A DNA stretch of 64,000 nucleotides from Sedimenticola hydrogenitrophicus (lineage in GTDB: Bacteria; Pseudomonadota; Gammaproteobacteria; Chromatiales; Chromatiaceae), in contig NZ_JAQGEI010000016.1 of assembly GCF_029017505.1 (NCBI RefSeq), positions 1 to 64,000 of the forward strand, given 5' to 3'. How positions within the stretch are numbered: the first letter of the stretch is position 1; each line of letters starts with the position of its first letter. Shown here piece after piece: positions 14,580-41,906 of the stretch. Position numbers and translations under genes: made by a program. The notes below the pieces were generated by a model that saw only the letters and a list, made by a program, of their open reading frames with translations, did not search any database and had not been told where the DNA came from.

Positions 14580-14661
14580 GGGAGTGCGTTAAACCCCGCC
14601 GTATGGAGATTGGTTCTCCATACGGCGGGAACATTCAGGTAGTCTGTATCTGGGGAGGTAT

Positions 14662-14790
14662 ATGATGAATGTGGATACCGTAGTGGTTGGGTCCCTGGTT
14701 GCCGTGGTACTTTGCGTGGTAATCGTCGGGTATATTGGCTTCAAGGTGAATGCGCTGATCAATAAGGATGCGAAGAGCCACAGGAAGTAA
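14662..14790 (+). CDS. 42-aa single-helix membrane protein in the cbb3 operon, possible CcoM-like subunit
   Basis: A short frame from ATG 14662 to TAA 14790 is preceded by a strong GGGGAGGT ribosome site. The product starts MMNVDTVVVGSLVAVVLC, forms one membrane helix (about residues 5-28) and ends in a basic tail (NKDAKSHRK). It lies between ccoP and an intrinsic terminator, so it is probably the last gene of the ccoNOQP transcript. In P. stutzeri the small CcoM helix is an extra cbb3 subunit; size, topology and setting match, but sequence homology cannot be shown here. The family name is therefore inference; the gene itself is well supported. Confidence 0.65.
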   Translation: MMNVDTVVVGSLVAVVLCVVIVGYIGFKVNALINKDAKSHRK

Positions 14791-14811
14791 CCCTCTGTTT
14801 CATAAGTATAT

Positions 14812-14838
14812 AAAAAAGGGGGGTGAACCCCCTTTTTT
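14812..14838 (+). terminator. intrinsic terminator of the ccoNOQP transcript
   Basis: A6-G5 (14812-14822) pairs with C5-T6 (14828-14838) around loop GTGAA; the T6 run provides the U-tract. It is the clearest terminator in the left half of the window and separates ccoNOQP plus the small ORF from ccoGHIS. Confidence 0.9.
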
Positions 14839-14921
14839 AATGGTGATATAATACATGCCTGTTATTGACAAATCGCATTTTTCCCATCCCGCCCTTCCAG
14901 TAAACTGAAACCCGGTAAGTA

Positions 14922-15080
14922 AGGATCTGGAAAGAAATAACTGCTACGCATTGCGCCGGATTTTCGTTTGCCTTCAAGGCACGGCAAGGCGCGCATAGTT
15001 GTTCTATTTAAGTCTTGCCGTAACGCAGAAGGCGGACGAAAAGACCAGCAAGATGTGGTAGTTATTTATGGACAGATCCT
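14922..15080. repeat. hairpin MITE-like element B, copy 1 (159 bp)
   Basis: Termini are AGGATCTG (14922-14929) and CAGATCCT (15073-15080); the inverted similarity continues as AAATAACTGCTAC against GTGGTAGTTATTT. Inside, TTTTCGTTTGCCTTC pairs with GAAGGCGGACGAAAA and ACGGCAAG with CTTGCCGT, so the unit folds into one long hairpin. A second copy in opposite orientation lies at 44516-44741. No target duplication is evident. It occupies most of the gap between the terminator and ccoG. Confidence 0.75.
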
Positions 15081-15150
15081 AACGATTGATTGACGCATGG
15101 TTATGGGATATGCGTGGCAGTTCCCGCATGGTATTAGAGGAGTGATTCCG

Positions 15151-20275: not shown

Positions 20276-20286
20276 TATTGCACGGT

Positions 20287-20493
20287 GTAACTACTCACCC
20301 GGTCTGTAAGTGATTGGCCTGCCTTGCCGGCCTCACACGATGGCGTGTCTCCTCGAATCCGGCCCCATTTTCAGCGCCTGCCCAAACTCGCTTCGCTCAA
20401 ACAAGGGCAGGCTTGAATCTGAAAAAGGGGCCGGATTCGAGGCGCCATCAAGATCGGCCAACAAGGCAGGCCAATCACCCCGTGAGTAGTTAA
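20287..20493. repeat. MITE-like palindromic element A, copy 1 (207 bp) with 8-bp target duplication
   Basis: The element begins GTAACTACTCAC and ends GTGAGTAGTTAA, and is flanked by TGCACGGT on both sides (20279-20286 and 20494-20501). Nested palindromes fill it: GATTGGCCTGCCTTG with CAAGGCAGGCCAATC, CCTCGAATCCGGCCCC with GGGGCCGGATTCGAGG, and GCCTGCCC with GGGCAGGC around a small loop. No coding capacity is evident. Other copies are at 28636 and 41726. Confidence 0.88.
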
Positions 20494-20500
20494 TGCACGG

Positions 20501-21286
20501 TTACAGTTGGCCGGACTCCGACCCAGTGGCGCCTGATTCATTTTGTAGCGGCTTCAGCACCCGGTCGAAATCTGCCGGATTGACATACTGAAACACCTCT
20601 TTCCCTTCGGGATTGACGGCAATGTCGAGACCCTTCGCCGGATAGAGCCAGTGTATTACCGGCGCGTCCGGTTCCGCTATCTTGTTATCCGGTTCACCAA
20701 AACGAGCGCTGATCAGCGCCTCATCCAGATCGGCGCCGGGTATATAGGTAATGACGGCGATCTTCTCCCGGGTCAGTGCCTCCATGTCGCTGCTGGAGAG
20801 TTCCACCTTTTTGGTGCCACTGCCCATGTTGCTGATCCGTTCGCCCTGTGCGAACATCCGCGCCGCCGTAGGCTCCGGGAGATCCAGAGTGAGCACGACA
20901 TCGGCCTTGAGGCCGCTGAGATAGATGCGCTGGAAATATACCTCGACCATATAACGGCTGTCCGGGGTCAGGAAGAGATTGGCCTTGCCCTGGGACTGGA
21001 AGCTTTCGCGGGCCTGCTCCAGGTCGCTTCTGCCCAGTTCGATACCGAATACACTGAGCGTGCCCTGATCATCCAGCCGCAGATTCCACGGCAGTTTGGG
21101 ATCCTCGTCGACGGTGCGACCACCCGGTAGCAGGATCGCTGCGGCCAAGGCGATCAGGGTCACTGCCAATATGCCAAGAATGATTTTGCGTTCCACCTGT
21201 TGCACCTGCTTATGGACGGCTGTCATTGACTCAACAACAGGCTGAATATCCGTGGGGCGTTGTGAATTGTCATGTCGACCAACCAC
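20501..21286 (-). CDS. membrane-anchored envelope protein of unknown function
   Basis: 261 aa (or 241 aa from an internal ATG at 21226; neither start has a good ribosome site). One N-terminal helix (about residues 35-53, ILGILAVTLIALAAAILLP) anchors a soluble domain of about 200 residues, probably periplasmic. Recognisable stretches are LSVFGIELGRSDLEQARESF and WLYPAKGLDIAVNPEGKEVFQYV; the latter looks like a SmpA/BamE-like or lipoprotein-type beta segment, but I cannot assign a family. It is convergent with the cbb3 accessory genes and divergent from a 52-aa ORF. Its stop codon touches the target duplication of MITE copy 1. Confidence 0.7.
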   Translation of the reverse strand: MVGRHDNSQRPTDIQPVVESMTAVHKQVQQVERKIILGILAVTLIALAAAILLPGGRTVDEDPKLPWNLRLDDQGTLSVFGIELGRSDLEQARESFQSQGKANLFLTPDSRYMVEVYFQRIYLSGLKADVVLTLDLPEPTAARMFAQGERISNMGSGTKKVELSSSDMEALTREKIAVITYIPGADLDEALISARFGEPDNKIAEPDAPVIHWLYPAKGLDIAVNPEGKEVFQYVNPADFDRVLKPLQNESGATGSESGQL

Positions 21287-28623: not shown

Positions 28624-28635
28624 GGTTGTTCCTAT

Positions 28636-28842
28636 GTAACTATTCACGGGGTGATTGGCCTGCCTTGCCGGCCTCACACGATGGCTTGTTTCCTCGAATC
28701 CGGCCCCATTTTCAGCGCCTGCCCAAACTCGCTTCGCTCAGACAAGGGCAGGCTTGAATCTGAAAACGGGGCCGGATTCGAGGCGCCATCAAGATCGGCC
28801 AACAAGGCAGACCAATCACTTGCAGATCGGCTGAGTAGTTAT
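28636..28842. repeat. MITE-like palindromic element A, copy 2 (207 bp)
   Basis: Nearly identical to copy 1 over its full length and in the same orientation. The termini are GTAACTATTCAC and CTGAGTAGTTAT. The flanks GTTCCTAT (28628-28635) and ATTCCTGT (28843-28850) match at 6 of 8, an aged 8-bp target duplication in the same register as the other copies. It separates ctaA from sco1 within an apparent operon; the terminal base pairs differ slightly from copy 1 (ATTC for ACTC), consistent with decay. Confidence 0.85.
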
Positions 28843-28851
28843 ATTCCTGTA

Positions 28852-41704: not shown

Positions 41705-41725
41705 TCCGGCATTCAATGTTTATTA

Positions 41726-41833
41726 GTAACTACTCACCCGGTTTGGAGTTGATTGGCCTGCCTTGTTGGCCTCACACGATGGCTGGACCAAGATCGGCCA
41801 ACAAGGCAGACCAATCACCCCGTGAGTAGTTAC
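41726..41833. repeat. MITE-like palindromic element A, copy 3 (108 bp, internal deletion)
   Basis: Termini GTAACTACTCAC and GTGAGTAGTTAC are perfect inverted repeats. The flanking 8-bp target duplication GTTTATTA (41718-41725 and 41834-41841) is perfect. Compared with the 207-bp copies the centre (the CCTCGAATCC..GGATTCGAGG hairpin, about 100 bp) is missing, leaving GATTGGCCTGCCTTG against CAAGGCAGACCAATC. It lies between dapL and lysA. Perfect TSD and TIR suggest it is the youngest insertion. Confidence 0.9.
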
Positions 41834-41906
41834 GTTTATTATTCAATCCTGGCCCCGTCCGGCCTGACCGGCGGGGCCGACAGCAGCGAGTCTTCGGAAA
41901 CCGACC

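Follow-up and report, generated by a model that had tools for sequence, protein, structure and literature searches.

The palindromic segments that recur in the window (the whole stretch of 64,000 nucleotides of Sedimenticola hydrogenitrophicus DNA that was analysed) are copies of one dispersed family, and we put at about 0.82 the probability that it is a type II MITE mobilised by a transposase of the ISBst12 group of the IS66 family, with later inversion and deletion of the copies in place. Insertion with an 8-bp target duplication can be read directly in the DNA, and inversions and deletions can be read at orthologous sites in a sister species. How would such an element move and change? In the mechanism that we propose, a single-gene IS66 transposase, from an insertion sequence not found intact here, would recognise the inverted ends of about 12 bp and insert the element with its 8-bp duplication; it is the matching ends that point to this enzyme. 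After landing, the near-perfect palindrome would be unstable: exchange between its hairpin arms would invert the core where it lies, and in at least one case the entire element, and deletion between short direct repeats would remove parts.

Copies in the window

An earlier note on this DNA had placed three copies in the window, and when the sequence was re-read its coordinates, termini and flanking 8-mers were correct for all three, with perfect 8-mers at copies 1 and 3 and agreement at 6 of 8 positions at copy 2. Two kinds of end are distinguished: end A, in which the 12-mer is followed by CCGGTCTGTAA, and end B, in which it is followed by GGG. The features are as follows.

20279..20286, no strand: left target duplication of copy 1, TGCACGGT, a perfect match to the right one
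20287..20493, + strand: MITE copy 1, 207 bp, end A left and end B right
20287..20309, + strand: end A of copy 1, the 12-bp terminus and then CCGGTCTGTAA
20310..20326, + strand: left arm base of copy 1, GTGATTGGCCTGCCTTG, the point at which core orientation switches relative to the ends
20462..20478, - strand: right arm base of copy 1, complementary to the left arm base
20479..20493, - strand: end B of copy 1
20494..20501, no strand: right target duplication of copy 1, TGCACGGT
28628..28635, no strand: left target duplication of copy 2, GTTCCTAT
28636..28842, + strand: MITE copy 2, 207 bp, the core of copy 1 with end B left and end A right
28843..28850, no strand: right target duplication of copy 2, ATTCCTGT, 6/8 here and 7/8 in the sister species
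41718..41725, no strand: left target duplication of copy 3, GTTTATTA, single in the sister species
41726..41833, + strand: MITE copy 3, 108-bp form, missing from the sister species
41834..41841, no strand: right target duplication of copy 3, GTTTATTA

The proposal that copies 1 and 2 share a nearly identical 207-bp palindrome holds for the inner 169 bp, which are 97% identical on the same strand (28651-28819, query 24-192), but not for the ends: the outer 23-bp and 15-bp ends are swapped, so that the core lies in opposite orientation relative to the ends. Both sizes of element are predicted to fold strongly as DNA, copy 1 at -74.3 kcal/mol against a mean of -29.1 and copy 3 at -34.1 against -12.6 (200 shuffles each). 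With up to 2 mismatches the 12-bp terminus occurs 9 times in the window, where 1.34 are expected and none of 100 shuffles reaches 9. An Rfam search of window positions 19500-42500 gave no match.

A dispersed family with 8-bp target duplications

The suggestion of a high genomic copy number is borne out. With at most one mismatch the 12-bp terminus is found at 106 + 102 places in this genome, against 6 + 10 for the reversed control, and pairing of the ends yields at least 94 elements, which range from 26 to 397 bp; 35 have a length of 206-207 bp and 19 a length of 107-108 bp. The elements paired in the sister species number at least 79. These totals are lower bounds, the elements having been selected by their ends. 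In one search the best 40 of 141 first-look candidates were scored and in another the best 40 of 128; the listing covers 100 of the 208 terminus matches, fewer than all 166 matches of a second search, and 100 of 129 in a third.

When the flanks of the paired elements are listed, as the earlier note had proposed, the 8-mers agree perfectly in 28 of 94 and with at most one mismatch in 57 of 94. Flank identity is 0.77 at 8 bp against 0.23-0.32 at 4-7 and 9-13 bp, and in the sister species 0.84 against 0.24-0.34 at other spacings. The pairing used flank agreement for choosing between alternative end pairs, and flanks played no role in finding the elements whose two 12-bp ends are both exact. In this genome 35 elements are of that kind; their flanks are perfect in 13 and mismatched at no more than one position in 23, and identity reaches 0.79 at 8 bp but only 0.23-0.35 at 6, 7, 9 and 10 bp. 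The 35 corresponding elements of the sister species give 0.84 at 8 bp.

The family is concentrated in two genomes. The exact 12-mer occurs 121 times in this genome, 174 times in the sister species (G001) and 0-2 times in each of 36 others; another genome of the genus holds one 207-bp copy with a perfect duplication, GTTTTCCT. When the best 2 candidates were scored in each of 369 genomes of the class, 11 had a match, namely this genome and 10 others, and the matches in those 10 were stretches of 21-68 bp only, in the loop region in 8 and the right arm in 2. Plasmids searched with the 207-bp element yielded no hit.

Comparison with the sister species, the empty-site check, gave a divided answer. 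The copy 3 site is clean and empty there, with one GTTTATTA; insertion after the species split and exact removal in the sister would both account for this, insertion being simpler. Copies 1 and 2 occupy the same sites in both species and are older insertions. At copy 1 the sister's element is longer, 259 bp against 207 bp here, the added 52 bp forming a second palindrome at the tip of the loop. This palindrome (GTCC...GCGGC type) also lies there in five further elements (L074, L111, L113, L115, L120).

Might these be REP-like hairpins that no DDE transposase has moved, with flanking 8-mers that match by chance? The strong palindromes would suit that account, as would flanks that are GC-poorer than DNA farther out (0.47 vs 0.58), as for intergenic repeats. 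It is contradicted by the 8-bp peak, by the empty site of copy 3 and by fixed ends that enclose very different interiors (L075, L096), and we consider it extremely improbable; the claim of transposition as opposed to REP decay thus stands. The elements have what defines a MITE: they are short, present in many copies, bounded by inverted terminal repeats and a target duplication, have an empty site, and carry no transposase of their own. Even the longest, at 397 bp, could not hold a transposase gene of the IS66 family, which needs about 450-500 codons.

Several other features of the family deserve mention. The same 12-bp ends enclose very different interiors in L075 and L123 (236 bp), in L089 and L096 (217-285 bp) and in L069, L083 and L118, which makes at least two further interior families, some with good 8-bp duplications. 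Five elements (L012, L071, L122, L090, L101) share the target [GA][TC]CCAGGG after a T run, apparently within another palindromic repeat, which looks like an insertion hot spot. Contigs of both assemblies break 70-96 bp inside elements (the end of C55 here; the ends of C45 and C62 and the start of C58 in the sister), so the palindromes probably fragment both assemblies.

Ends and the candidate transposase

The earlier note saw no transposase gene nearby and proposed mobilisation in trans, and the wider search supports it: a transposase with the MITE's ends was found neither in this genome nor in the sister, though a copy may be missing from the draft, and the intact IS66 elements of this genome lie on other contigs and have different ends (GTAAGCG). 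An insertion sequence with termini of this kind and an 8-bp duplication, which the note had suggested looking for, does exist in the ISBst12 group of the IS66 family, but in other bacteria. The GTAACTACTCAC ends of the MITE resemble GTAACTATTCAGC and GTAACTACTCAG, and agree with ISBst12-type ends over about 11 bp. ISDge4 of Deinococcus geothermalis, assigned by its authors to the single-gene ISBst12 group, is similar in its GTAACTGCTCAGCA/GTGACTACTCAGCA ends and 8-base target duplication but carries a 449-residue transposase gene, whereas the elements here, at 26-397 bp, have only the ends in common with it (PMC12898284, from the excerpt available).

Ends of the GTAACTATTCAGC type were found around plasmid IS66 genes. 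Among six regions examined, both ends are present in L383, L388 and L384, with perfect 8-bp duplications in the first two and without one in the third, while L385 and L386 have one end and L387 has none; the gene is partial in L383, and L388 has an open frame of 483 codons whose product shows 43.6% identity to an annotated IS66 transposase across 454 residues. In another gammaproteobacterium (G031) a high-copy repeat has the ends GTAACTACTCAG, at 77 + 56 places with at most one mismatch, and occurs as a 152-bp MITE with the perfect duplication TCGAATTC and as pieces of a longer element at contig ends. One such piece runs out in an open frame, the final 36 residues of which match plasmid IS66 transposases, with 58% identity over 33 residues to an annotated one. 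The repeat looks like a high-copy ISBst12-type insertion sequence with its own 152-bp MITE. A profile search for PF03050 in that genome, whose ends had suggested the link to IS66, gave no match, which counts against the link; collapse of the repeat in the assembly is an unproven explanation. Another gammaproteobacterium, G026, has a repeat with closely related ends, GTAACTACTCGC.

Could C44 and C61, the IS66 elements of the classical three-gene type in this genome, move the MITE? They too begin with GTAA and make 8-bp duplications: C44 has GTAAGCG ends with the perfect duplication TTACAAAT, and one GTAAGCG end is seen at C61. Moreover, PF03050 matches occur in only 2 of 9 genomes of the genus, the two that are rich in the elements, a distribution that also favours the ISBst12 reading. 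But classical ends share only GTAA with the MITE, against about 11 bp for ISBst12-type ends, and the C44 and C61 transposases have no blastp match at 1e-3 to a Pseudanabaena ISBst12-type transposase. We think it unlikely that they are the source. The IS66 matches in this genome and G001 are classical or remnants, the sister having one remnant with two stops.

Other searches for a partner gave candidates that were set aside. Among 46 viral contigs holding GTAACTACTCACCC, two pairings of ends were seen, both with 2 of 8 flank bases wrong, and were taken as chance. A 31-base end gave 8 weak matches among plasmids (E 7), and among the unpaired ends fetched from this genome none had a mate that would make a longer element. 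The end type and the 8-bp duplication are those of the ISBst12 group. Since no single-gene transposase with the same ends was found in the genome, however, the element would be classed as a MITE with ISBst12-type ends and not as an ISBst12-group insertion sequence. Judged from the ends, it looks like an ISBst12-type derivative that may have outlived its partner here, or whose partner may be missing from the assembly.

Inversion and deletion at shared sites

Both arrangements of ends and core seen in copies 1 and 2 recur in other elements. Where both ends and an arm could be typed, arm c adjoins end B in 47 elements and end A in 21 in this genome, and end B in 40 and end A in 17 in the sister; the inner loop is reversed relative to the arms in 1 of 44 typed copies in each species. 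On a tree of 58 cores the end/core state changes 18 times, against a mean of 18.0 when shuffled, and 308 of 500 shuffles are as low, so that the state shows no clustering on it. That tree covers 58 of 73 long oriented copies (15 with cores outside 120-140 bp were omitted), mixes both species so that orthologs are counted twice, and is poorly resolved, with 6 of 55 inner branches well supported.

At orthologous sites, flanks identified 33 pairs, and 29 were kept after both ends were required in the sister. In 19 of these the core lies the same way round in both species, in 5 it does not, and 5 are undecidable; thus 5 of 24 pairs with typable cores differ, 4 of those 5 with weaknesses. E45 is the strongest case. 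There the whole element is inverted, and the variant CAGTCACCCC, present in only those 2 of 173 elements, stands in opposite orientation to the flanks. Whole-element orientation also differs at E73, which may be an independent event. At E7 and E27 core orientation differs and the ends are unchanged; lengths differ too, and the E7 call rests on one arm. E67 was not counted as a flip, the site being rearranged and the flanking 8-mers differing between the species.

Might gene conversion or recombination between copies instead explain such differences in orientation and interior? The genome offers about a hundred similar partners, and the 14 differences at E73 exceed the 1-7 seen in seven unflipped pairs of equal length, though they fall short of the median of 25 for paralogues. 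L019, with end A on both sides and flanks that do not match, suggests that copies do recombine with one another. Against this account, E45 has kept its otherwise unseen variant despite the reversal. We regard it as possible but lean towards inversion within the copy. Of the ways to such inversion, template switching between the hairpin arms is the likeliest; at replication it would be the simplest route, and it would account both for the flips at the terminal repeats and for those at the arm base, which is 17 bp long. In the published account such switching inverts the spacer between inverted repeats and homogenises the arms (PMC8604942, in the part consulted). It may not be separable from recombination between copies in every case.

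Lengths differ by at least 20 bp in 16 orthologous pairs. A 4-bp repeat stands at the junction in four pairs, with 0-4 mismatches. E23 and E47 go from 207 to 67 bp at GGCC, E66 goes from 207 to 35 bp at GTGA, and at E40 51 bp are present or absent at CGGC, possibly by insertion. E1 has a 5-bp junction repeat alongside 25 mismatches, and in the remaining pairs the junction repeats are 0-2 bp or the mismatches are too many to read. The 35-bp form might be thought mobile itself, but this was rejected for E66, where the other species has a 207-bp copy at the same site, of which the 35-bp form is the deleted version. Very short 'transposons' with intact target duplications can thus be deletion remnants. 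A 36-bp form with a perfect 8-bp duplication lies at 21072-21107 of contig C2 in the sister; the window has no element there, and its counterpart sequence is not a clean empty site. In-place flipping and shrinking, and the shared sites of copies 1 and 2, go beyond what the earlier note had described.

A bolder idea is that the hundred or so elements are heritable DNA switches, with hairpin cores or bodies inverting at the arm bases often enough to reach mixed orientation. If it were true, many intergenic regions would be re-set by one dispersed invertible family, but we hold it to be rather improbable.

Relation to known elements

MITEs are common, and inversion of Correia elements in Neisseria was reportedly described by Elbeyioglu in 2017. 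Size variation with conserved ends and inversion of a bacterial MITE are thus already known. The literature search, which was limited in subscription journals, turned up no report of a MITE of the IS66 family, nor of any MITE in Sedimenticola. Within the literature searched, the assignment of a MITE to ISBst12-type ends looks new, as does the evidence from two species for palindromes that change in place. With dozens of marked hairpins at shared sites, the two species preserve a natural history of flipping, shrinkage and loss of long palindromes in a bacterial chromosome.

Several systems invite comparison. QMITE1/2 of Coxiella and Chunjie of Geobacter likewise have conserved ends and target repeats, variable interiors and sizes, and tens of copies, but in the present family a comparison of orthologs between two species reveals interiors that change while the site stays the same (PMC10969869, as far as the excerpt goes). 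The same excerpt cites the inversion of Correia elements, so that these, compared by description, are also bacterial MITEs able to invert in place; in the present family the core inverts independently of the ends as well (PMC10969869). Template switching in yeast shares spacer inversion, homogenisation of the arms, reversibility and arms of more than 9 bp, but the inverted spacers there involve substitutions of 2-5 bp, whereas the present inversions take in some 170 bp or the element from end to end (PMC8604942, again in the part consulted).

Apart from the family, positions 14636-15082 of the window hold a separate inverted duplication, both halves of which match one stretch of contig C2 of the sister species, in opposite orientations.
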